NCBI GenBank assembly: GCA_016860845.1
Contig: BOKF01000044.1
Location: forward strand, 7,802-71,801
Origin: Chloroflexota bacterium
GTDB lineage: Bacteria > Chloroflexota > Anaerolineae > 4572-78 > J111
DNA length: 64,000 bases
Direction: 5' to 3'
Below are positions 31,284-64,000 of this stretch, piece by piece. The notes beneath the pieces were generated by a model, which was not told where the DNA came from, did not search any database, and saw only the letters and a program-made list of their open reading frames with translations. The position numbers were made by a program, and so were the translations under genes. Within the stretch, counting starts at the first letter, position 1, and each line of letters begins with the position of its first letter.

Positions 31284-32135
31284 ATGTCCAAAAGAAAGCG
31301 TGTCTTTAGTCGCAAAATATTCAATGAATGGATCAAAGAGGGCCGGGGCAAAGGAGACGGTCCAAGCTACCAACCGTGGTATCGGATTCAGGATGTGCCC
31401 TCGCACGGGACGTGCCATCGTATCAAAAGCGTCTGGACGACCGGTCGAGAAACCCATCTGTTGAGTAATCTGGAGCGCGACTGGTTCTTTGTGTTCGATT
31501 GGGCGTCCCATGTCGTCGATATTCGGGAACAATTTCCGCTCCTGCCCCTGGCTGAGACCCAGGCGATTGCGGTTGAATGTGGGATCAGCCATCCCTTCGA
31601 ACGTCGCAGCGGAGAGAAACAAGCCATTGTCCTGACCAGCGATTTTCGGATTACGCTGGTTGAGGGTGATCGAACCGTGGATCAAATCCGAACGGTCAAA
31701 TATGCCAAGAGCCTATCCAACAAACGGGTGATGGAGAAATTTGAGATCGAGCGGCGTTACTGGGAACGGCGGGGCATCGCCTGGGGGATCGTGACCGAAC
31801 GAGAGTTGCCCAAGCAGTTGGTTCGAAACATTGAATTACTGCACGGGAAATGCTGCCTCAGCGAGCGGTTGAATTTGAGGGCAGAGCAATTGTACCTCAT
31901 AGCCCAAAGCTTAACCAAGGCCGTCATCAGCGAGCATCTGTCCTTGAAAGAGGCTGGGACTAGCTGTGAGCGACAATTTGGTCTGGACAAAGGCGCAGGC
32001 TTGACCATTGCCTACTACCTGTTGGCTAACCGTTATTGGAACGTGGATATGTACCACCCAATTGACCCCAGGAAGCGGATTACCCTGTTGGATCATGATC
32101 TTGAGAAGTTGCAGTCCACAGGCGGGAGGAGCTGA
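31284..32135 (+). CDS. tnsA: TnsA-like transposon endonuclease
   Basis: A 283-residue protein of Tn7-type TnsA, which cuts the 5' ends of the element during cut-and-paste transposition. The catalytic PDDEXK set is visible: Glu64 in LLSNLERDWFFVFDW, Asp120 in IVLTSDFRITL and Lys139 in RTVKYAKSL. The C-terminal half (ERRYWERRGIAWGIVTEREL and the winged-helix-like part with LSLKEAGTSCERQFGLDK) matches the TnsA C-terminal domain that contacts TnsC. It begins MSKRKRVFSRKIFNEWIKEG. A strong AGGAGG precedes the ATG but may be masked in the leader helix. tnsB follows after 2 bases. Its presence predicts clean cut-and-paste movement and not copy-in co-integrates. Confidence 0.93.
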   Translation: MSKRKRVFSRKIFNEWIKEGRGKGDGPSYQPWYRIQDVPSHGTCHRIKSVWTTGRETHLLSNLERDWFFVFDWASHVVDIREQFPLLPLAETQAIAVECGISHPFERRSGEKQAIVLTSDFRITLVEGDRTVDQIRTVKYAKSLSNKRVMEKFEIERRYWERRGIAWGIVTERELPKQLVRNIELLHGKCCLSERLNLRAEQLYLIAQSLTKAVISEHLSLKEAGTSCERQFGLDKGAGLTIAYYLLANRYWNVDMYHPIDPRKRITLLDHDLEKLQSTGGRS

Positions 32136-32137
32136 CC

Positions 32138-34321
32138 ATGCTACTCCTGAAGAATACCCTCATCAAGTGGCTAAATGAGGAAGCCGAGGTGGAGCGGGTT
32201 GACCGCATTCTGTGGATCGATCCGGCCAGAAGTTACGTATATACCCTTGATATGGCAGACAAAAGAGCCTTGCCCATTAAGAGAAGTTACGCCCAGATCA
32301 TCGCCGCCCTCAACCAAGCTGAGGCCCTGGTCGTCACGCGAGATCAGCGCTACCTGCTCCAACCTGAAGAGCAGTTTAGCCAGAAACAGCGTCAACGCCG
32401 GGAGGCAACCTGGGTCTTAATCGAGCCAATTGTGCGGGCTGAAGGTGAGGCCGCCTTCATTCCCCAGCAACGAGGTCAACTGATTGAAGCGGTCGCTCAA
32501 CAGACGGGCCGGGCAAAGCGCCTTATTTATGAATACTTACGGCGCTATTGGCGGGAAGGACAGGTGAAGAATGCCCTCATTCCGCGCTTCGACCAGTCAG
32601 GGCTGAAGCCGGGGCCAGAGCTTGAGCCAGCAACGGTTAAACGAGGGCGACGGAGAAGCCGGGATGAACAGGCGGGGATGAATATTGACGGGGTCACCAA
32701 AAAGTTATTGGAAAAAGGATACAAGCGCTTTTACCTGAGTGGCGAGTGCAAAACGCTGACAGAGGCGCACCGCCGTACTTTAACCGCCTTCTTCCGCATT
32801 GAAGAAAGGGTAGATGAAGATGGGGTCACGCAGCCTATCCTGCCGCCCAAAAGTGCCCTGCCCACGTTGAGACAATTTAAGTATCACTGTCATCATCAAG
32901 GTCAGCGCGAGACGGTGCTCGCCTCACGGGAAGGGGAGAGCCGGATCAAGGCCAATTATGGTCCCAAGTTAGGGAGTGCCCGGTTAATGGCTTTTGGGCC
33001 GGGGGTCTGGTATCTGATCGACTCGACCCCGGCGGACTGTTTGTTAGTCAGTGCGCTCAACCGAAGTCAAGTTCTGGGCAAGCCCACGCTCTATTTTGTC
33101 AAAGATCTGTTCAGTATGATGATCGTCGGGGTTGAAGTTTCGCTGGAAGAAGCCAGTTGGGTGACGGAAGTGTTAGCCCTTCAAAATGCGCTGACGGACA
33201 AAGTGACGTTCTGCCAAAATTACGGGATTACTATCAGCCCGGAACAATGGCCGTGTCATTATGCGCCGGAGTTTTTGCTGGGTGATCGCGGCGAAACCGA
33301 GAGCGTGCAGGCCAGCAACCTGGTGAATACCCTGGGCATTCAGGTCTCCAACACCCCGCCCTACCGTCCCGACCTCAAAGGTCCGGTGGAGCTTGATTTT
33401 CACCTGGCCAACCATTATGCCATCCATCAATTACCTGGCGGTGGGGCTGGCCCGCAACATCGCGGGGACAAAGATCGGCGGGGCTTACCCTGTCTGACCC
33501 TCTATGAATTCAGACAGAGTGTCATCAGTTACATTCTGTTTTACAACCAGGCGCACATCCTGGCCAATTACCCTTTTGACGAATTCATGCTGGCCGATGG
33601 GCTCAAACCGGTGCCGCTACAGGTGTGGAACTGGGGGATCGAGAACCGAAGTGGACAACTGCGCCGCATTGATCCGGAGGTGGCTTACCGGAATTTGCTG
33701 CCCCGCGTCCAGGCCACCGTCACCCATCAGGGCATCGAATTCAAGGGGTTGCGATATTTCTCGGCTTATGCGGCTGAGCAGCAGTGGTATCTGAAGGCCG
33801 GCAAACAGACGGGTCGCAAAACCAGAAAAGTCAGCGTGGCCTATGACCCTCGCACCACCAACGCCATCTTTCTGTGTTTGCCGGATCAGGTTTTGGAACG
33901 TTGTCCGCTCCTGGAAAAGGACCAGGGGTACGCCCATCGAGAGTGGGTCGAAGTCGAGGCGCAGAAAGCCTTTGAGGCAGCCCAGCGGGTTGAGTTAGAA
34001 AATGACCGGTTTCAGGCTCTGGCCGAATTACATGCTCGGTTAGAACACATTTCGGGTCCAGCCCAGCAGGCCGCTGCAGCCGCTGACCCGGCGAGCCAAT
34101 CCAGGCGGGTTACGACCAAAAGCAAGCGCGAACACAAACAGCGCGAAAGAGTCCTGGAACGCCAACGGGATATCGAACCAGGGGTGGTCGAGTTGGTTCA
34201 GCCAGCAACAACTCAGAGCATTGATCAAAGAGCCGCCCCACCTAAACATCGGTACATTCCTCGGCCAGACTACAGCGACCTGATCCAAGAAGTGTGCGCA
34301 GCGGAGGCCAACCATGCGTAA
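32138..34321 (+). CDS. tnsB: TnsB-like DDE transposase
   Basis: A 727-residue DDE integrase of the Mu/TnsB class that cuts and joins the 3' ends. The catalytic triad is Asp295 (YLIDSTPADC), Asp383 (LLGDRGETES) and Glu418 (PDLKGPVELDF), with the D-x35-E spacing of retroviral-type integrases. N-terminal HTH segments (about 100-180, including TGRAKRLIYEYLRRYWREGQ) bind the end repeats. The Mu-type C-terminal beta domain is near 520-610, and the end is a charged helix that contacts TnsC. It starts 2 bases after tnsA and overlaps tnsC by 8 bases. All catalytic residues are intact. Confidence 0.94.
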   Translation: MLLLKNTLIKWLNEEAEVERVDRILWIDPARSYVYTLDMADKRALPIKRSYAQIIAALNQAEALVVTRDQRYLLQPEEQFSQKQRQRREATWVLIEPIVRAEGEAAFIPQQRGQLIEAVAQQTGRAKRLIYEYLRRYWREGQVKNALIPRFDQSGLKPGPELEPATVKRGRRRSRDEQAGMNIDGVTKKLLEKGYKRFYLSGECKTLTEAHRRTLTAFFRIEERVDEDGVTQPILPPKSALPTLRQFKYHCHHQGQRETVLASREGESRIKANYGPKLGSARLMAFGPGVWYLIDSTPADCLLVSALNRSQVLGKPTLYFVKDLFSMMIVGVEVSLEEASWVTEVLALQNALTDKVTFCQNYGITISPEQWPCHYAPEFLLGDRGETESVQASNLVNTLGIQVSNTPPYRPDLKGPVELDFHLANHYAIHQLPGGGAGPQHRGDKDRRGLPCLTLYEFRQSVISYILFYNQAHILANYPFDEFMLADGLKPVPLQVWNWGIENRSGQLRRIDPEVAYRNLLPRVQATVTHQGIEFKGLRYFSAYAAEQQWYLKAGKQTGRKTRKVSVAYDPRTTNAIFLCLPDQVLERCPLLEKDQGYAHREWVEVEAQKAFEAAQRVELENDRFQALAELHARLEHISGPAQQAAAAADPASQSRRVTTKSKREHKQRERVLERQRDIEPGVVELVQPATTQSIDQRAAPPKHRYIPRPDYSDLIQEVCAAEANHA

Positions 34322-35795
34322 AGGTAATCGCTTGTTGACCCTGGATTGGACACCCAACGTAGACACCTGGGCGGAAACGGCCACCTATCGAGACCCGGAG
34401 AACCCCCTCTACCAGGGCAACCCACTCATTGAAGCTTTACCCAGCCCCCGCTCCACCCCAGAAGTGATCAATTTACTGAAACATTATCCTGACTTTGATC
34501 CAGCTCACCGGGCCTATCCTGAAGAAATCCGGCTGGATATGATCGAGAATGTGGCCCAGGTCTTTCAACCGCTCAATGAACATCTAACCCTGGAACGCCG
34601 CTTCGCGAGGGCAATTCGGGGTGGCTATGTTGGCCGTGACCTGTTTGAGATCCCCAGCGTGGCCAAGACGGCCAAAAAGCTGCAAGCCGATGAGCCCCAA
34701 AACCGGGAGCGCGCCCTGGCCAGAGGGTTCTATCTCATCGGCATGAGCGGGATGGGCAAAACAACTTCCACCGAAGCCATCCTGAGCCTCTATCCGCAAG
34801 TCATCTGGCACAGTGACTACAACGGCCAGGTCATTATGCGAGCCCAAGTGACCTGGCTCAAGCTAGAATGTCCTCACGATGGCTCAACCCGCTCCCTCTG
34901 TTTCGCCTTTTTCGCCGCCCTGGACAAGATATTGGGCACGAATTACTACACCGCCTATGCCGAGAATGGTCGGGCGACCGTGGCCAAAATGCAGATCTAC
35001 ATGGCGTTTCTGTGTGAGTTGTTGAATATCGGCATCCTGGTCATTGACGAAGTGCAACATCTCAATCGGGCCAAAAGTGGTGGGGCCGAGACCATGCTCA
35101 ACTTTTTTGTCGGGTTGTCCAATACCATCCGCATTCCGATGGTGTTGATTGGGACCTATCACGCCTTTGATATCTTCACCAAAGAATTTCGCCAGATGCG
35201 GCGGGGGACCCGACAGGGTAATTTCATCTGGCAGCGCATGCAAAAGGAAGACCCCTCCTGGGAAACCCTCTTGAAGGGGATTTGGAAATATCAATATGTG
35301 CGCCAGCCCGTGCCCCTCACCCCTGAATTGGGCGAGGCCTTGTACTATGTGACCCAGGGGGTAACCGACCTAGTCATCACCGTCTTCATTTTGGCCCAGG
35401 AGCGGGCCATTACCGATGGGATGGAAACCATTGAGCCCAGCACGATTTACTCGGTGGCGGCAGACAGTATGGAACTGGCCTACAAACCCCTGCAAGATTT
35501 GCGGACCAACGCGGCGACCTTGCAGGAGTATGTAGATGTAGTCATGCCCATTGAACTCCAGGATGCCTATGTCCGCCAGGCCAGGAAGTCAGAACCTCAG
35601 CCTTTACCTCGAGGCACCGGGTCGCCTCAACCCCATCAATCCGAACCCCCACCAGATCAGGTACCTTCAGCGCAAGATCTGCGGCAACATTTATCCCTGG
35701 TCGAAACCGAAACCACACTCTATGAGACCTTGAAAGCAGTCGGGCATATCGCCCAGGCTGGGGACTATATCCCACCGGGAGGTGGCCCATGTTAG
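34314..35795 (+). CDS. tnsC: TnsC-like AAA+ transposition regulator
   Basis: A 493-residue AAA+ ATPase that links target choice to the transposase. Walker A is LIGMSGMGKTTSTEAI (Lys149) and Walker B is GILVIDEVQHLN (Asp245-Glu246). The following sensor-1 stretch is IPMVLIGTYHAFDIF, and the later MRRGTRQGNFIWQRM is the arginine-rich sensor region. The N-terminal 100 residues (RSTPEVINLLKHYPDFDPAH onward) are TnsB/TnsA-contacting in family members. The Pro/Gln-rich C-terminal tail (about 430-460) may contact TnsA. It overlaps tnsB by 8 bases and tniQ by 7, so the proteins are made at coupled levels. Confidence 0.93.
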   Translation: MRKGNRLLTLDWTPNVDTWAETATYRDPENPLYQGNPLIEALPSPRSTPEVINLLKHYPDFDPAHRAYPEEIRLDMIENVAQVFQPLNEHLTLERRFARAIRGGYVGRDLFEIPSVAKTAKKLQADEPQNRERALARGFYLIGMSGMGKTTSTEAILSLYPQVIWHSDYNGQVIMRAQVTWLKLECPHDGSTRSLCFAFFAALDKILGTNYYTAYAENGRATVAKMQIYMAFLCELLNIGILVIDEVQHLNRAKSGGAETMLNFFVGLSNTIRIPMVLIGTYHAFDIFTKEFRQMRRGTRQGNFIWQRMQKEDPSWETLLKGIWKYQYVRQPVPLTPELGEALYYVTQGVTDLVITVFILAQERAITDGMETIEPSTIYSVAADSMELAYKPLQDLRTNAATLQEYVDVVMPIELQDAYVRQARKSEPQPLPRGTGSPQPHQSEPPPDQVPSAQDLRQHLSLVETETTLYETLKAVGHIAQAGDYIPPGGGPC

Positions 35796-38749
35796 CCTAC
35801 TTTCCGACCGCCTATCCCGACGAATTGCTTTTCAGCGTGGTCTCCCGCTTGGCCGAGATGATGGGGTATCCTCGCAGCAATGACTTGTCCCGGGCCGTCT
35901 ATGGCCAAGACAGACCGATGGTAGAGATGGGGTTGCCCAGCCATATGGAGGAGGTGGTGGCTGCTTTACCAAGGGGGCATCGCTTGACCGCCGACAAACT
36001 CATCCATGAACAGACGCTGTATCCCTTTTACCAGCCTTTCTTGCTGGCCAAAAGTGCTCAAACCCTGAAAGCGTTGCTGTGTAGCCGGGATGGTTCAAAA
36101 GTGCCGGCCTATACGGGACTTTCCCTGAAATCGATCCGGCCTTCACCCTGGCTGCGCTTCTGCTATGACTGTGTTCAGACGGATCGGGCTCAGTATGGAG
36201 CGTGTTATTGGCATCGGCTGCATCAACTGCCTGGCGTCAAGATTTGTCCCCAGCATGGGGCCATTATTCAGGACAGTCAAGTCCCAACCTATCATCGGAC
36301 CGTCAAACATCGCTACATTTCCGCCGAACAGGCCCTGACCCAGGCCGCGCCTTGTCCAAACCCCCTAACCCAGGCTGCCTTTCAGGAATGTCTGTGGATT
36401 GCCCAGGATGCGGCCTGGCTGCTGAACAACCTTCAGCCTCAGCTGACACCCGAAGCCTTACAGACCAAACTCTACCAGGTTCTGGCCGAGCAAAGCCTGG
36501 CCAGTTACAACAGGGGGATGATCCGAGCGGCGATGTTCTTGCGGGCCTTTGCCCACCATTATGCAGCGGACTTACTCAACTTGCTAGAGTGCCCCCTTGA
36601 TTACGGCAATGCGCAAGCCTGGCCCATCCAGGTCATTACCAGAGCGGGTCGCAAACATCCCTTACAATATCTGCTGGTCATTCACTTTCTGGGATACAGG
36701 GCCGAAACCTTTTTGACCTTGCCTGAACCGGCCTCCTATTTTGGCCAGGGACCCTGGCCTTGTCTGAACCCGGCCTGTCTATCCTACCAGCAACCCGTCA
36801 TCGAAACATGTCAAATTGACTTCCGGGGAGCAGATACCCGCCCGCGGGGCACCTTTGCCTGTTCGTGTGGCTTTGTATATCGCCGGGTTGGACCCGACCA
36901 GGAAGCGGCCGACCGCTTCCGCATTGGGCGGGTCGTGACCTATGGCCCCGTCTGGGACAACCGCTTTCAACAATTGGGGGCTGACCCAAGGGTGAGTACC
37001 GAGGAAATGGCCCAGCAGCTTAACATCGAGCCAACCACCCTGATGGCCTATGCGGCTCGACAAAACCAGGTCGCGCCGGAGCAGCCCCTGCCCCTGGAAA
37101 CACGGACCTATCACCGAAACCGCTGGCTGGCGGCCCTTGAACAATTACCAACCAGGAGCCTGCGTGAACTCAGAAAGGATCCAGCCTTGAATGAGACCTA
37201 TCGCTGGCTTTTACGCCATGATCGGGCCTGGTATGAGGCCCACCGGCCTGCTTTCTCTAGAAGAACAGGGACGAGAAAGGAAAAGTCCATCTATCCGGAT
37301 CATTACTGGCGAAATCGGGATGTTCAACTGGCTGAGGCAATCCGTTTAGCCGCGCGCCAACTCTTGAAACAACCGGGGCGTCCCCTCAAGATCAGCCTGA
37401 CGGCACTTTGCAACTACTTGAACCAGGGCAGTTTTACTTCACGGCGGGCAAAACTACCGCTTACCACACGGACTCTGGCCGCCGTGGTGGAACCTTATGA
37501 GGTTTTTGTGATCCGCCGTTTGGAATGGGTGCTTCAGCAGTATCGGGCAAAAGGGATCACGCCCACCAAAAGAGTTTTGACCCAAGAATCAGGGCTGGCT
37601 TGCTTCGGAGAACCCAAATGGCAAGATTTTGCCAACCAGATCTTGGCTCGCCTGACTTCTCAGGATGACCTTGAACCGTCCCTGGTGCATGACTTTCTAC
37701 CCTGCGGTCAGCAAGATTGGCCAACACTCGACGCTGAATTGTCCGAGTTGGTGCGACAAGCGGCGCGGCAACTCAAGGCCAAATCTGGTTACCCCACCTG
37801 GGTGACTATCTGTACGATTGGCGCCGAGCTTGACCAGTTGGAGGTCTTACTCTGTCACCTGGATTTACTGCCCCGCACGGGCCAAACGTTGACCGAGGTG
37901 GTGGAACCGGTCGAGGTTTTTGTAACCCGGGTGATGGCTTGGATGGCTAACGCTGGCCCGGATGCCTTTTCTCATCGCGCCCGGTTGATCAGGCTGGCTG
38001 GCTTAAAACCGTATCTGCACCTGCCAGCGGTGTCCCAGATCATTGATGATGCCTGCGCCCGGTTACAAGCACCATCGCCGCCATCCTCTCGGCGGGTTGA
38101 TTGGATCACCCGTGATCAAACCCTGGCTTCAGCCATCACCGAGGCGGCTGACCTGATCAGAAATCGCTTGAACCCGCCCCAGCGGGTAACTAGGGGCTCC
38201 CTCGCTCAAGTTGTTGATTCATTTGGCCTGATCAAGACCAAAACGTGGCACGTACTGGTCCGCTGCCTGGATCGACTCCCGGAAACCAGGCAAGCCTTTG
38301 AACAAGTCCAGGAAACCCACGAACAATTTGCTCAACGTCGCTTGTATATCGTGGCTAATCGCTTCCGGCCTCAGAGTTTGCGGCCCACCCGAACCCAATT
38401 GCTGCGGCAGGCCAATGTAGAATACCTGGCAACCTGTCCCTTGATCCAGGCAACCATCGAGGAAATTTTGGAGGCTACGGCTGCGCTTCCTTCCGCTTCT
38501 GAAGTGGCGACCCGGAGAAAATGGGCAGAGCTTGACCAGCGCTTATCACGGCAAATTGAATCGACAGCTGGGCATTTGAAAGCCCTCACAGATCCGCCCG
38601 TCTGGGTCAGTACCGCGGCCATTGCCAAACATATCGGCTACCAACTCCAGCCCAGCAATCTGGAAAATTTGCCCCAGACCGCCAAAATTTTGGCTCAGGC
38701 CGTTGAGACACGGGAGGAGTTCGCTATCCGTCAGAGACAATATCGATGA
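35789..38749 (+). CDS. tnsD: TniQ/TnsD-like target-selection protein
   Basis: A 986-residue protein. The N terminus (FPTAYPDELLFSVVSRLAEM) is the TniQ signature. The TniQ zinc-binding residues are Cys125, Cys128, Cys139 and Cys153-x-x-His156 (FCYDCVQTDR, GACYWHRLHQLPGVKICPQH). A second Cys-rich patch (CLNPACLSYQQ, then FACSCGFVYRRVGPDQEA) is near residue 330-370. The rest has repeated helical units ending in PVEVF or PYEVFVI-like strings, such as LAAVVEPYEVFVIRRLEW and LTEVVEPVEVFVTRVMAW, which suggests tandem DNA-binding modules, consistent with a sequence-specific TnsD-type selector of a chromosomal site. It is about twice the length of E. coli TnsD (508 residues). Only one TniQ is present and there is no Cas partner, so homing to an attachment site is the likely mode. 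Confidence 0.9.
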   Translation: MLAYFPTAYPDELLFSVVSRLAEMMGYPRSNDLSRAVYGQDRPMVEMGLPSHMEEVVAALPRGHRLTADKLIHEQTLYPFYQPFLLAKSAQTLKALLCSRDGSKVPAYTGLSLKSIRPSPWLRFCYDCVQTDRAQYGACYWHRLHQLPGVKICPQHGAIIQDSQVPTYHRTVKHRYISAEQALTQAAPCPNPLTQAAFQECLWIAQDAAWLLNNLQPQLTPEALQTKLYQVLAEQSLASYNRGMIRAAMFLRAFAHHYAADLLNLLECPLDYGNAQAWPIQVITRAGRKHPLQYLLVIHFLGYRAETFLTLPEPASYFGQGPWPCLNPACLSYQQPVIETCQIDFRGADTRPRGTFACSCGFVYRRVGPDQEAADRFRIGRVVTYGPVWDNRFQQLGADPRVSTEEMAQQLNIEPTTLMAYAARQNQVAPEQPLPLETRTYHRNRWLAALEQLPTRSLRELRKDPALNETYRWLLRHDRAWYEAHRPAFSRRTGTRKEKSIYPDHYWRNRDVQLAEAIRLAARQLLKQPGRPLKISLTALCNYLNQGSFTSRRAKLPLTTRTLAAVVEPYEVFVIRRLEWVLQQYRAKGITPTKRVLTQESGLACFGEPKWQDFANQILARLTSQDDLEPSLVHDFLPCGQQDWPTLDAELSELVRQAARQLKAKSGYPTWVTICTIGAELDQLEVLLCHLDLLPRTGQTLTEVVEPVEVFVTRVMAWMANAGPDAFSHRARLIRLAGLKPYLHLPAVSQIIDDACARLQAPSPPSSRRVDWITRDQTLASAITEAADLIRNRLNPPQRVTRGSLAQVVDSFGLIKTKTWHVLVRCLDRLPETRQAFEQVQETHEQFAQRRLYIVANRFRPQSLRPTRTQLLRQANVEYLATCPLIQATIEEILEATAALPSASEVATRRKWAELDQRLSRQIESTAGHLKALTDPPVWVSTAAIAKHIGYQLQPSNLENLPQTAKILAQAVETREEFAIRQRQYR

Positions 38750-44229: not shown

Positions 44230-44420
44230 TGGTCGTTGGTCTGGCAACTCTGGGAACAGTTGGCGGTTTTAGCTTAGGTTTGGCTATAAAGCTGTTACCT
44301 TGAACATATACAAACGTATACATTCGTCCCCAACGCTTTAGTCCTTTATTCAAGGGATTGACGTTGGGCGTTTTGCGCTCCGTTGATAACGTCCCATCGG
44401 GTTTGGGAGATGTTGCAACT
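44230..44420 (-). ncRNA. Candidate omega/reRNA at the 3' end of tnpB
   Basis: TnpB proteins usually use a guide RNA that overlaps the 3' end of their gene and extends to the element's right end. Here the minus strand continues about 120 bases past the tnpB stop without another gene. It contains a short dyad (TATACGTTTGTATA), then GGTAACAGC. The exact right end and guide start were not found, so the borders are approximate. Confidence 0.3.
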
Positions 44421-45929
44421 GGAGTCCCTGCCCGCAACAGTCCTCGCTTCACCTTTCGGCTCCACGATTTCCAAAACGGCAGGCCGCTTTTGAGCGGCAA
44501 ACCTGGCCAGCAAGATAGTCTTCACCTGCTCCTTGGGCGTCCAAAGGGTAATTTCAGGATCAGTAAGTCTTGCTTTGAGGTTCATGGCGGCAACCCAGTC
44601 TGCGGACGCCTCGTACAGACACATCCTGCACTTAAACCTGTCCCCGTTGCGGTTCTGCCCGTCAACGAACCAGCAGCGAGGGCAGGTTTGAGACGTATAG
44701 GCTGGATTGACCTGCCTGTGACGGCAACCTGCCGCCGACGCCTTGAAATCCGTTCGATCGGCCAATGTCCCGCGCGGCCAGAGACTGACCTGGCGGGACA
44801 TGTGCTTACTTTTGGCTTTGCCCCGGATGTCGAGCTTTTCAGTGACCAGAGTTTTCGGTTTTCTTTTACCCAGCATCTGATTGAGGGCCGTATTGATCTG
44901 GCGTTCCAGCTCGATCCGGTTCTTGCGTTTCTTTTTAGTCTGCTTCTTTTTGCCCAGGTTGAATTTACGAATATGCCACGCTTTCTTGTGCCGCCCTTTG
45001 CGACTATGCTTTTCAGCCAGTTGATACAGCTTGTTGCGTTTGCGGTTCTTTTTCAGAATGCGCTCGGACTCATCGTAAATCAAGTGACCCAGACCGGTGC
45101 CGTAGCGCTCGCCGGTTTCATCGGTAAAGACTTCGCTCAACCCGGCATCAGCGGCCATCACTTCCTCACCTGGTATGTCGGGGATGCTGACCCTGGCGGT
45201 GTAATGGATCTCAACTCGCTGCCGCTCGACCTCAAGGACGACCCGGATATTGCCGGAAATGACCGTGTAGCCAGTCAGAGGAATTCTGATCCGTTTGCGT
45301 GGGGTTAGCCCAGTCACGGCGATAATCTGCGTGCCAGCTTTGGTCATTTCGATGTCGTACATATCCGGGTCCAGGGCAAAGGAGCGTTCTACTTTGACCA
45401 GCGGCGGGCGACCACGTTTGCGCCGGATGACCCGACGTAAATAGTTCCGCACCGCTCGTCGCTCACACGGGGTAATGTCGAAATGCTTGGGCAGCGGCGC
45501 TTGACCGGCAACCAATTCAGCCGTGCGCCGAGGTGTGTAAATCAACCAATAAGCATAGCGCAGTTGGCTTTCGGTCCAAACCGTCCCACACGGCGCTTTG
45601 CCATCCTTATCCGCTTGATGGGCGCCAATCAGCGGCTTAAGCTCTTCTGCCAGCGCTGCCCACCCCTTTTCGACCATTTCATAGGCATCTTTTTGGGCCA
45701 GCTTCCACATCCGGCCGGAAACGCCGTAAGGACTCTTGTATTTGTCCTTGACCAGGACATCCCGACGGATACGCTCGCTGGAATGTGAGCCAAATAGGGC
45801 GTCGTCGTGATAGACCAGCCCGTGTTCCTGCTTTTCTCTGGCATAGGCCGAGGCAATCTCACGCAAGGCGTCAAACTTGCCCCGATTGAGACGACGGCTG
45901 ATCCGGCGAATGGTGCGTATCAGAGTCAT
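44346..45929 (-). CDS. tnpB: IS200/IS605-type TnpB RNA-guided nuclease
   Basis: A 527-residue TnpB, longer than the usual 400. RuvC-like catalytic residues are present: Asp in EEVMAADAGLSEVF, Glu in KTLVTEKLDIRGK and Asp in ASADWVAAMNLKA. The zinc finger is CPRCWFVDGQNRNGDRFKCR, followed by the second Cys pair. A basic stretch (RKGRHKKAWHIRKFNLGKKK) lies between the first and second RuvC parts. TnpB is the RNA-guided nuclease ancestral to Cas12 and helps its element persist by cutting empty donor sites. No Y1 transposase (TnpA) is next to it, so this is a standalone element moved in trans. The extended N terminus (about 150 residues before the usual core) is unusual. Confidence 0.85.
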   Translation of the reverse strand: MTLIRTIRRISRRLNRGKFDALREIASAYAREKQEHGLVYHDDALFGSHSSERIRRDVLVKDKYKSPYGVSGRMWKLAQKDAYEMVEKGWAALAEELKPLIGAHQADKDGKAPCGTVWTESQLRYAYWLIYTPRRTAELVAGQAPLPKHFDITPCERRAVRNYLRRVIRRKRGRPPLVKVERSFALDPDMYDIEMTKAGTQIIAVTGLTPRKRIRIPLTGYTVISGNIRVVLEVERQRVEIHYTARVSIPDIPGEEVMAADAGLSEVFTDETGERYGTGLGHLIYDESERILKKNRKRNKLYQLAEKHSRKGRHKKAWHIRKFNLGKKKQTKKKRKNRIELERQINTALNQMLGKRKPKTLVTEKLDIRGKAKSKHMSRQVSLWPRGTLADRTDFKASAAGCRHRQVNPAYTSQTCPRCWFVDGQNRNGDRFKCRMCLYEASADWVAAMNLKARLTDPEITLWTPKEQVKTILLARFAAQKRPAVLEIVEPKGEARTVAGRDSSCNISQTRWDVINGAQNAQRQSLE

Positions 45930-59672: not shown

Positions 59673-60359
59673 TCACCCTGCTGGACCCATGTACCAGAAC
59701 GGCGAGACCAAGCCCACTTGTTTGAAAATCGCCTCGACCTGGCTCAGGCTTCGGCCGTGATACTCAGGTGAAAGGCGATTGCCATACCACTGTTGGGACA
59801 GTTCCCACACTTGCCCCACGGAAAGGACTTCACCACGTTTCTGATGGTTTCCCTGACACCAGCGGTTGAGAGAAGCTTCCGACCGGAAGAGCAGGATCGT
59901 GGCTCAGGTGAAGACCAAATCGTCATACCAGTGGCGGAAGGGCACCAGGAAATGGATCAGCTCGCCGTGGTCAACCACTCGGCCTTGCTGTACCTCAAGG
60001 CTAACCGGCTGCCCGCTCTCAGCACATTGGGTTTCAATCCTGGCCCCGCTGTGAAGCGCTGCCGGAATACCCAACGAATCCCAGGCGCAGTTGGCCCAGT
60101 AGAGCTTTCCTTGAGCATGAACCTGAAATGGAGTGGAAATGGCCGAAAATGGGTTGGCCATGCGGATGGTCAGAGTATTCGGCTCGAGGAATAGGGCGTG
60201 GCGTTGATGGAGGTCCTGGTAGAGGGCAGCCACCTGATCCGGCCTCAGATGAAAATGGCTCGCTGTTTCCGCTACTGTCGGAGGCCGGGTCGTAGCTACA
60301 AAGTGTTCATAAACGAAGGCCCGCACGGCCCAAACAAGGTTTTCATCCCGTATTTCCAT
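59673..60359 (-). CDS. MerB-like organomercurial lyase with in-frame UGA (candidate selenoprotein)
   Basis: Read through one in-frame TGA (59904-59906), the gene encodes 228 residues; without readthrough it stops at 151. ATG 60357-60359 has GGGAGA just upstream (ATG 60371 is an alternative). The N-terminal part has a winged helix (PTVAETASHFHLRPDQVAAL). The MerB core follows: LYWANCAWDSLGIPAAL, with Cys91-x-x-Asp94 equal to Cys96-x-x-Asp99 of MerB. DDLVFT then leads to codon 152, UGA, followed by ATILLFRSEASLNRWCQG. MerB has its second catalytic cysteine (Cys159) at this position, and relatives read D-x-x-FTC-x-T there. After the UGA 76 codons stay open with normal family wording (VWELSQQWYGNRLSPEYHGR) and end at 59673-59675. 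Selenocysteine or a nonsense mutation are the two readings. MerB cleaves C-Hg bonds. Confidence 0.75.
59876..59906 (-). promoter_or_regulatory. Candidate bacterial SECIS element
   Basis: After the UGA (59906-59904), 14 bases lead to a CUUCC (59889-59885) / GGAAG (59880-59876) stem with a GGUC loop. The E. coli fdhF SECIS has a GGUCU apical loop at almost the same distance (18 bases from UGA to the GG there, 19 here). The stem is only 5 bp, so this is supportive and not decisive. Confidence 0.5.
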
Positions 60360-60444
60360 AGAGTCTCCCATAGTTTTTTGCGCGAGACACTTTTTTCTTG
60401 AAAGAAGTCAGGTCAGCCGAATTGACAGCTCCTCACGCAGTTCA

Positions 60445-61195: not shown

Positions 61196-62347
61196 TTATC
61201 TACAAAACACCTGGGCGACTGCGGTGTACACGTTGGCGCATTGTTGCACCGTATCTAAATCGACCCACTCTACCGGACCGTGTGCTCCAAATCCACGTGG
61301 CCCCAACAAAATTGTCGGCACGCCAGCCGCAGAAAATAACCCCGAATCGGCCCAATACGATACCCCACTCAGCTTCGCCGGAGACCCTGTCACCTGGGTC
61401 AGTTGCTGGCGGCAGAGCTGCACAAGCGGGGTATCTTCATTCAGCTCAAAGGCATCGCGGGCTAACCCAGGGGTCAACTTGGCTTTGAAGGTGCTGTCGG
61501 TGCTGGCACACCGGTCAAGGATGGCCTGCAACTGCGCCTGCACCCCCTCGGGTGTCTCGCCGGGCAGGGTGCGACGCTCGATTTGCAGCTTGCAGTAAGC
61601 CGGATAGGAGGACATCTCTTGCCCGCCTTGAATAATCGAGGCGTGCAGCGAACCGCTGCTCAGATAGGGATGAGTGGGGTTCGCTCTCAACTGGAGATCG
61701 TACTGCTCTAATTCAACCAACACCCGGCCCATCTTGGCAATGGCGTCCACGCCCAGGTGCGGACGCGAGCCGTGCGCGGCTACCCCCAAAGTCTCGATGT
61801 CAAACCAGACAAAACCTTTGTGGGCCACGGCAATTTCCATTTCGGTCGGTTCGGTCACAATTACGGCATCGGGCCGCCAGCGAGGTAAGTCACGGCAAAT
61901 AGCTTCGGTGCCGAGGCTGGCGACCTCTTCGTCGGCCACACAGGTCACCATAACGTCGCCGGATAGATGGAGCGACTTGGCCCGCTTAGCCGCCATCAAA
62001 CTGGCGGCAATGCCTGCTTTCATATCATACGTGCCGCGCCCGTACATCCGGTTGCCCTCAATCCGGGCGCTAAAGGGTTCATCCATGCCGGTTAAACCGA
62101 CGGTGTCGGTATGACCATTTAGCATCAGATTTTTACCGCCTCCCGACCCTCGGGCGATCACCATCACATTCGGTCGCCCTGGGGCAGCATCTTGCACGAT
62201 GACCTCCAGCCCGGCGCGGGTCGCCCATTCGGCGATGAACGCGGCCATGTCAGCTTCACCCTTTGCCCCCGCAATCAAGTTGGGATTGATGGAATCGATC
62301 CGAACGAGGTCGGCCAGTAAAGTGATCAGTTCCGTTGGGTTATTCAT
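61196..62347 (-). CDS. M20 family metallopeptidase (ArgE/DapE/CPG2-like)
   Basis: A 383-residue amidohydrolase read from ATG 62345-62347, with GGGGAGG 8 bases upstream. The zinc site is visible: LMLNGHTDTVGL (His and Asp), GRGTYDMKAGIAASLMA (bridging Asp), VADEEVASLGTEAI (catalytic and metal Glu) and VTEPTEMEIA. The dimerisation domain follows (HGSRPHLGVDAIAKMGRVLV), with the end ILLGPRGFGAHGPVEWVD carrying the last His. It matches acetylornithine deacetylase, succinyl-diaminopimelate desuccinylase and carboxypeptidase G2; these cannot be told apart here. The VOC gene follows 67 bases downstream on the same strand. Confidence 0.92.
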   Translation of the reverse strand: MNNPTELITLLADLVRIDSINPNLIAGAKGEADMAAFIAEWATRAGLEVIVQDAAPGRPNVMVIARGSGGGKNLMLNGHTDTVGLTGMDEPFSARIEGNRMYGRGTYDMKAGIAASLMAAKRAKSLHLSGDVMVTCVADEEVASLGTEAICRDLPRWRPDAVIVTEPTEMEIAVAHKGFVWFDIETLGVAAHGSRPHLGVDAIAKMGRVLVELEQYDLQLRANPTHPYLSSGSLHASIIQGGQEMSSYPAYCKLQIERRTLPGETPEGVQAQLQAILDRCASTDSTFKAKLTPGLARDAFELNEDTPLVQLCRQQLTQVTGSPAKLSGVSYWADSGLFSAAGVPTILLGPRGFGAHGPVEWVDLDTVQQCANVYTAVAQVFCR

Positions 62348-62392
62348 CAAAAGACCTCCCCTGCTCTCAAAAATTTATTTTTGATCCCCAGC

Positions 62393-63315: not shown

Positions 63316-64000
63316 ATGAAACTCACGGCTAAGGTCAAGTTACAAAGCAGTCCAGAGCAACACCAGGCGCTGCTTAAAACATTAGAACGAGCTAATGCGG
63401 CCTGTAACCATATCAGCAATGTTGCCTGGAACAATGGGATATTCGATAAGTTCAAGTTGCAAAAGTTGACCTATCAAGCGGTCAAAGACCAATTTGATTT
63501 GACGGCTCAAATCGTCATCCGCTGTTTGGGTAAAGTGGCTGATAGCTACAAACTGGACAAAAAGGTTAAACGAGAATTTAGACCCCTGGGCTCGATTGCT
63601 TACGATGACCGCATTTTGCGTTGGTACGTTGATAAGCAAGAAGTCTCTATCTGGTCGGTGAATGGCCGGTTGAGAATTTCGTTTTTGGCCGGACCCCGCC
63701 AACTTGAACTGCTCAGCTTCCAACGGGGTGAAAGTGACCTGGTGTTGATTGACAATACTTTCTACCTGTTTGTCACTTGCGAGATTGAAGAAGCCGAACC
63801 CCAGGACGTTGCAGAATTTCTGGGCGTAGACCTGGGCATCAAAAACATCGCGGCTGACAGCCTGGGTGAAATGTATGCCGGAAACCAGCTCAACCGTCTC
63901 CGCAAGCGACACGCCAAACTGAGAAAGAAGTTGCAAAGCAAAGGAACCCACCAGACCCGGCGACTGCTCAAAAAGCGGCGGCGCAAAGAGAGCCGGATGG
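63316..64000 (+). CDS. tnpB: IS200/IS605-type TnpB, N-terminal part (runs off the right edge)
   Basis: The frame opens at ATG 63316 (MKLTAKVKLQSSPEQHQALL) and runs 228 codons to the window edge. It starts with the TnpB N-terminal helical region (ERANAACNHISNVAWNNGIF). The beta-barrel part follows and then the first RuvC motif, EFLGVDLGIKNIAADSLGEM, with the catalytic Asp. RLRKRHAKLRKKLQSKGTHQ, the basic bridge-like helix, is last in view. It differs strongly from the TnpB at 44346, so these are two separate elements. No TnpA is visible on the left. The start has no clear ribosome-binding site but has an A/T-rich promoter-like stretch (TTGATAATATAGTACAATTG). Confidence 0.85.
   Translation, partial: MKLTAKVKLQSSPEQHQALLKTLERANAACNHISNVAWNNGIFDKFKLQKLTYQAVKDQFDLTAQIVIRCLGKVADSYKLDKKVKREFRPLGSIAYDDRILRWYVDKQEVSIWSVNGRLRISFLAGPRQLELLSFQRGESDLVLIDNTFYLFVTCEIEEAEPQDVAEFLGVDLGIKNIAADSLGEMYAGNQLNRLRKRHAKLRKKLQSKGTHQTRRLLKKRRRKESRM

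Follow-up and report, generated by a model that had tools for sequence, protein, structure and literature searches.

What becomes of a UGA codon that falls, within a MerB-like reading frame, exactly where a catalytic cysteine is expected? In textbook accounts the carbon–mercury bond is cleaved by the enzyme MerB. It is described as holding the metal by Cys96, Asp99 and Cys159 (PMC4525700). The frame in question lies in the window, by which we mean the whole 64,000-nucleotide stretch of DNA analysed here. A preliminary description of this DNA had reported a single UGA at codon 152 followed by 76 open codons; its coordinates all proved correct and both statements hold in a minus-strand frame, a strand that it had left out. 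The frame runs from the ATG at 60359 through 151 codons to the TGA at 59906–59904, and then through 76 codons to a second TGA at 59675–59673. An in-frame ATG at 60371 is an alternative but less likely start than that at 60359, upstream of which a GGGAGA is seen by eye at 60369–60364. Against the Pfam MerB profile (PF03243, cut-off 27) the piece preceding the internal TGA scores 60.2 bits and the frame with the TGA read through scores 98.3 bits. Alignment with solved MerB chains places the TGA on Cys159, Cys91 on Cys96 and Asp94 on Asp99, just as had been proposed: the UGA replaces one catalytic residue and the other two are intact. The features of the gene are these:

59673..60359, minus strand: complete MerB-like gene (228 residues) that includes a single candidate selenocysteine (Sec) codon, defined by the reading frame and Pfam MerB
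60087..60089, minus strand: codon for Cys91, equivalent to MerB Cys96 by alignment to solved MerB and invariant in a 45-row alignment
60078..60080, minus strand: codon for Asp94, equivalent to MerB Asp99 by the same alignment to solved MerB and likewise invariant in the 45 rows
59904..59906, minus strand: UGA, candidate Sec152, at the position of MerB Cys159; TGA in 79 of 79 relatives, Cys in the homologues P0010 and P0121–P0124
59876..59889, minus strand: putative SECIS hairpin core, CUUCC-GGUC-GGAAG, within codons L-F-R-S-E
59676..59903, minus strand: the C-terminal 76 codons past the candidate Sec codon, conserved in relatives (median dN/dS 0.16)
59673..59675, minus strand: terminating TGA, where relatives have TAA, TAG or TGA

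The UGA is a trait of the family. In public genome DNA, 79 of 79 relatives' loci (L001–L079, from the best 80 of 129 confirmed stretches) have TGA at the aligned codon, and none has TAA or TAG. This is far beyond chance. At all 79 the C-terminal half continues in frame, with no further stop for at least 72 codons; 78 of these 79 halves are distinct, L062 and L063 being alike after the UGA. Assigned from record titles, and from tree phylum labels for the rows in that tree, the carrier loci belong to Chloroflexota (most), Thermomicrobiota, Acidobacteriota, Gemmatimonadota, Verrucomicrobiota, Planctomycetota, Myxococcota and Pseudomonadota. Across 177 pairs of relatives at least 62% alike with dS of 0.2–1.5, dN/dS past the UGA has a median of 0.16 and a maximum of 0.67, indicative of purifying selection; the pairs are not independent and describe the relatives, not the window's own branch. 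That the gene is an ordinary MerB gene broken by a chance nonsense mutation or a sequencing error, as its internal stop and the absence of any named mercury gene among its eight neighbours might suggest, is refuted by the conservation of TGA across several phyla, and the selection on the relatives' frames past the UGA and the constraint on the hairpin described below leave this explanation practically no weight. Searches beyond cellular chromosomes returned little: none of 37 viral contig stretches was confirmed, and the 12 plasmid records obtained all lie below 60% identity, with merB or alkylmercury lyase as the annotation of 10. The 76 post-UGA residues, used alone as a protein query, gave one candidate and no significant match.

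Gene callers cut the protein at the UGA. Among the 120 homologues listed (of 1575, the window's own included), 118 end at the residue preceding the TGA; the two that run through the site are P0004 and P0010. These truncated products would be expected if a genuine 151-residue MerB-like protein ended here and the remainder were a remnant or a separately started polypeptide. We consider this very improbable, since the C-terminal half is in frame and conserved at all 79 loci from the best 80 of 129 stretches, Cys-containing homologues run straight through the site, the full read-through protein is predicted to fold like MerB and a hairpin stands at the place that SelB requires. AlphaFold models the read-through protein with a mean pLDDT of 96.5, and all 11 Foldseek matches of this model at E 0.001 or better are MerB, the solved chains at 20–22% identity.

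The preliminary description had proposed scoring the RNA downstream of the UGA for a bacterial SECIS element. A nearly invariant hairpin is indeed present there in the relatives. Its core, CUUCC-GGUC-GGAAG, starts 14 nt past the UGA, with the apical loop 19 nt past it, and occurs in 72 of 80 sequences, window included. With the TGA in place the core is found at 71 of the 79 MerB sites and at no other position in these loci, a total of 2.15 Mb with both strands counted. Codon choice within the hairpin differs from that elsewhere in the same genes: Ser is TCG in 76 of 76 cases (25% elsewhere), Arg is CGG in 60 of 64 (23%), Leu is CTC in 43 of 44 (30%), Phe is TTC in 79 of 80 (61%) and Glu is GAA in 64 of 80 (49%), the sequences being related and p-values accordingly not taken at face value. 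Two tested codons nearby but outside the stem are unconstrained in their choice.

Pairing in the stem was followed through 90 aligned elements, comprising the window, 78 loci and 11 sequences of a two-Sec family described below. Paired cells make up 96.9% of the total, and three of the six pairs have changed on both sides. One of these double-sided changes, C-G to U-A, is carried by the 11 two-Sec sequences and may be one event; C-G to G-C and U-A to C-G are found in one sequence each. None of 500 shuffles reached the observed value for either pairing or the covariation score. The number of further pair types does not favour the hairpin (142 of 500 shuffles were as high), and a control slid by +1 gave a covariation score of 0.169 against the observed 0.151, but with only 65.6% of cells paired. 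The published bSECIS rule (PMC13188914, section 5), applied to unconstrained 45-nt minimum-energy folds with the energy limit of the rule left off, describes 73 of the 79 loci; six do not conform, and in two, L038 and L053, the loop differs. The motif is present in the window, yet its own unconstrained 45-nt minimum-energy fold is a different structure. Judged by its sequence conservation and pairing across the family, the hairpin downstream of the UGA is a bacterial SECIS element.

The same description had suggested looking for the Sec machinery in the genome, and we did so in relatives. Fifty carrier genomes, chosen for spread from those of the 79 loci, were compared with 14 control genomes. 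A selB gene over cut-off is present in 47 of 50 carriers (the others have it in two pieces in G023, as a fragment in G030 and not at all in G032) as against 2 of 14 controls. For selA the figures are 47 of 50 and 1 of 14, with fragments in G024 and G046 and none in G006. These gaps may reflect incomplete bins. tRNA-Sec scores at least 62 bits in 44 of 50 carriers, a threshold set after the scores were known; this higher score was used because Rfam's own cut-off, reached in 47 of 50 carriers, also matched 5 of 14 controls. A UCA anticodon is present in all five of the tRNA-Sec checked with ARAGORN. One binned genome, G002, holds two tRNA-Sec of similar score (C347 and C435) and is possibly a mixed bin. 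Taken alone, selA in carriers is weak evidence because the gene is widespread in Chloroflexota (found in 122 of 151 genomes sampled), and selA by itself was dropped as proof of Sec use. Rfam and tRNA scans of the 64-kb window gave no match, so no selC was detected there; that the window's own organism makes Sec is something we infer from the genomes of its relatives.

Could the UGA be decoded as something other than Sec, through reassignment to Trp or Cys or through unprogrammed readthrough? P0004 does have Trp at the Sec column, possibly the product of translation under code 4. UGA also serves as the terminator of the gene, both in the window and in many relatives, and the terminators at the true gene end are a mixture of TAA, TAG and TGA, which implies that UGA is not simply reassigned. 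Together with the SECIS-like hairpin, the SelA, SelB and tRNA-Sec of carriers and the presence of Cys in five homologues of full length, themselves retrieved with a Cys query, this leaves decoding as another residue only a very slim chance of being correct.

The residues that replace Sec in relatives bear on the same point, and it had been proposed that the aligned column be examined for Cys or UGA. Beside the TGA of all 79 loci, Cys is found at the site in five full-length metagenome homologues (P0010 and P0121–P0124, obtained with the Cys protein P0010 as query) and in four copies from genomes that lack selA. In the Chloroflexota sample, relatives with both TGA and hairpin core are present in the selA-positive genomes G019, G022, G031, G095, G130 and G147, the first three of which were already among the 50 carriers and the fifth of which is a partial match. 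The three selA-less genomes (G071 with two copies, G090 and G133) have TGC in four of four copies, at 29–35% identity, and no hairpin core. G066, a selA-positive genome, has TGC at 25% identity in what looks like an ordinary MerB. This comparison leaves out the weak matches in G077, G190, G081, G086, G061 and G198, as well as G114, which is without the column. A tree of 61 proteins has the Cys forms at three places among the Sec forms, although only P0010 and P0121 lie inside a well-supported Sec group, the other two placements not being firm. On this tree, the three placements fit a repeated change from Sec to Cys. Because the UGA and its downstream frame are conserved, a SECIS hairpin follows, relatives have Cys at the site and carriers have the machinery, we conclude that the internal UGA is almost certainly read as selenocysteine.

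The likely course of events can be set out on the model of MerB. SelB loaded with Sec-tRNA(Sec) would bind the hairpin just past UGA-152, and insertion of Sec at that codon would yield a 228-residue enzyme with Cys91, Asp94 and Sec152 as its catalytic set. By its position Sec152 would be the second cysteine-type metal ligand. No row of the 45-row alignment departs from the Cys96 and Asp99 equivalents, and the Cys159 site is likewise invariant (as Sec) apart from the four Cys forms included. An organometal cation would then be held, as in MerB, between Cys91 and Sec152, with Asp94 relaying the proton that frees the hydrocarbon. A selenolate is more acidic, and a stronger ligand for mercury, than a thiolate, properties that would make it apt for alkylmercury when scarce, or for other soft organometals. 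The end point may be selenium- or thiol-bound metal and not Hg(0); we propose this because MerA is mostly absent from carriers, exceeding its cut-off in only 6 of 50 genomes. In two of the MerA-positive genomes (G005 and G027) a separate MerB-like gene, its frame uninterrupted, is found near MerA. Taken as a whole, a MerB-fold selenoprotein in which SelB and a SECIS element decode UGA-152 to complete a catalytic Cys91–Asp94–Sec152 is a highly probable account of the locus. Organometal cleavage as its function is the less secure part, though we think it probable.

Within 6.5 kb of 80 genes, the five largest of the neighbour clusters, which are the most recurrent ones and were annotated, are HMG-CoA reductase (22 loci), a histidine-kinase-like protein (19), HMG-CoA synthase (17), a thiolase-like protein (15) and DnaA (15). 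No mercury gene is among these five, and membership of a mer operon is unsupported. The mevalonate-pathway genes (HMG-CoA reductase, HMG-CoA synthase and the thiolase-like gene) surround the gene in 15–22 loci, for example L003, L005 and L016, a context of Anaerolineales and other Chloroflexota loci. For the eight neighbours in the window (52.5–63.2 kb) NCBIfam names no mercury family and none of the Sec-assisted organometallic (SAO) system, in agreement with the earlier remark that no other genes of such a system are near. Because mercury genes are missing from the five annotated clusters and MerA is found in so few carriers, the substrate is one that we can only infer. A Sec-containing MerB-fold protein that binds metal or selenium, or that cleaves a substrate other than an organomercurial, is favoured by the position among mevalonate genes in those 15–22 loci and by the 44 of 50 genomes that have no MerA over cut-off. 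The invariance of the Cys96 and Asp99 equivalents and of the Cys159 site, whether occupied by Sec or, in four rows, by Cys, argues against it, and we hold such a role to be a real but distinctly less likely possibility than organometal cleavage.

Other genes in the window deserve mention in their own right. An M20 peptidase gene (61196–62350) adjoins the MerB-like gene and has a homologue near it in seven other loci; its NCBIfam matches are all below cut-off, the YgeY selenium-linked hydrolase model being one of many. Further away, four consecutive genes at 31284–38749 resemble, by eye, tnsA, tnsB, tnsC and tniQ/tnsD of a Tn7-like transposon, and TnpB/OrfB-like genes of IS200/IS605 type are seen, likewise by eye, at 44346–45929 and 63316–63999.

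Besides the gene described so far, four of the 50 carrier genomes (G001, G037, G047 and G048) have another, divergent MerB-like gene whose reading frame holds two TGAs. One TGA is at the Cys96 column, within AAUxxD so that Asp99 is kept, and the other is at the Cys159 column. A profile of the four genes matched 11 of 297 genomes of G047's phylum (Acidobacteriota by record). These are G047 itself and G457, G319, G401 and G302, with at least two TGAs (the matched stretch also holds a TAA in G401 and a third TGA in G302); G362 and G461, which are fragments with one TGA; and G213, G224, G272 and G480, whose matches fall short in strength or in length or are of another kind. The two-Sec loci are thus L138–L141 and L175–L178 (G001, G047, G037, G048, G457, G319, G401 and G302). 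All eight family members that extend over the Cys96 column have TGA there, as do all 11 at the Cys159 column, one of the 11 being a second fragment in G047.

Hairpins follow both codons. Past the second TGA, CUUCU-GGUC-AGAAG is present in the 45-nt fold of 11 of 11 sequences, differing from the single-Sec hairpin by a compensated closing pair. Past the first, CCCUU-CGUGC-AAGGG, or a variant of it in which both partners of a pair have changed, is recognizable by eye in eight of eight, and is the minimum-energy fold in only five of the eight (not in L141, L176 and L177). selA exceeds its cut-off in five of the six additional Acidobacteriota genomes, G302 being the exception, and in the four two-Sec genomes found first. 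In G401 (L187, 1–5744) the merB-like gene with two UGAs is a direct neighbour of selA, selD and selB, which share its strand and all exceed their NCBIfam cut-offs; the SelD encoded there has a C-terminal AhpD-like domain. Two other divergent loci depart from this pattern. L143 (G187) has TGA at the Cys96 column, Glu instead of Asp99 and, as placed by the 17-nt spacing to the hairpin core and not by BLAST alignment, TGA at the Cys159 site. The MerB-like gene of L142 (G147) has TGA at the Cys159 site only, and Glu at the Asp99 position.

As read from binned genomes, the two-Sec genes appear to carry Sec at both metal-binding positions. On balance we favour the view that several phyla possess stand-alone MerB-fold selenoenzymes outside mer and SAO operons, with Sec at Cys159 or at both Cys96 and Cys159, annotated as truncated proteins and with Asp99 kept in the main two-Sec family. 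If so, the two-Sec form would present an organometal with a site of two selenolates and one carboxylate, and a single active site that occurs naturally in Cys, Sec and two-Sec forms would offer a test of why selenium is used. Moreover, a family that annotation cuts at the UGA, found among mostly uncultured bacteria from several phyla, could change the counts of demethylation genes in environmental surveys.

How does the family compare with known systems? With MerB (PF03243; solved structures 3f0o and, for MerB2, 5c17) it shares the fold and the catalytic Cys96 and Asp99 equivalents. It differs in having Sec instead of Cys159, in a protein family whose Cys96, Asp99 and Cys159 a 2021 survey describes as strictly conserved (PMC8261052). 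It also lies below the NCBIfam MerB equivalog cut-offs (45.6 against 193 and 40.8 against 200), and for this reason we do not file the gene as MerB proper; MerA, the usual companion of MerB, is over cut-off in just the six carriers mentioned above. Among the matches listed for literature searches on Sec-containing MerB, SaoL, organomercurial lyase and Chloroflexota, neither the family nor a two-Sec MerB appears in any title or opening of an abstract, and a term look-up found no mention of MerB in the main texts of PMC2398784, PMC5029168 and PMC12013277.

The closest case is SaoL (NF040728, motif CU), described as a MerB-like, Sec-containing lyase of the SAO system, whose operon has six selenoprotein genes (PMC13188914); an alkylmercury lyase MerB-like selenoprotein is given under the same accession elsewhere (PMC9312934). 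The preliminary description's remark that Sec-dependent organometal systems with MerB-like members had been proposed is therefore borne out by the record. The window protein, however, scores 48.7 bits against an NF040728 cut-off of 140, none of the 50 carrier genomes exceeds that cut-off and the motif here is TU where SaoL has CU. SaoB is found in none of the 50 carriers, a weak test as the control genomes are also without any match. With L142 the SaoL profile matches weakly (24.4 bits), the match stopping at the Sec residue, and the Sec of SaoL may well occupy the same site as that of the family described here. Double selenoproteins, among them MbdU and MduS, are also listed in PMC13188914. 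The two-UGA proteins would likewise contain two Sec residues, but they match no NCBIfam model of that kind, only the MerB and SaoL models and these below cut-off. Hence, Sec-containing relatives of MerB are already on record, and the single-Sec family is, by its NF040728 score, not SaoL but a family distinct from it.
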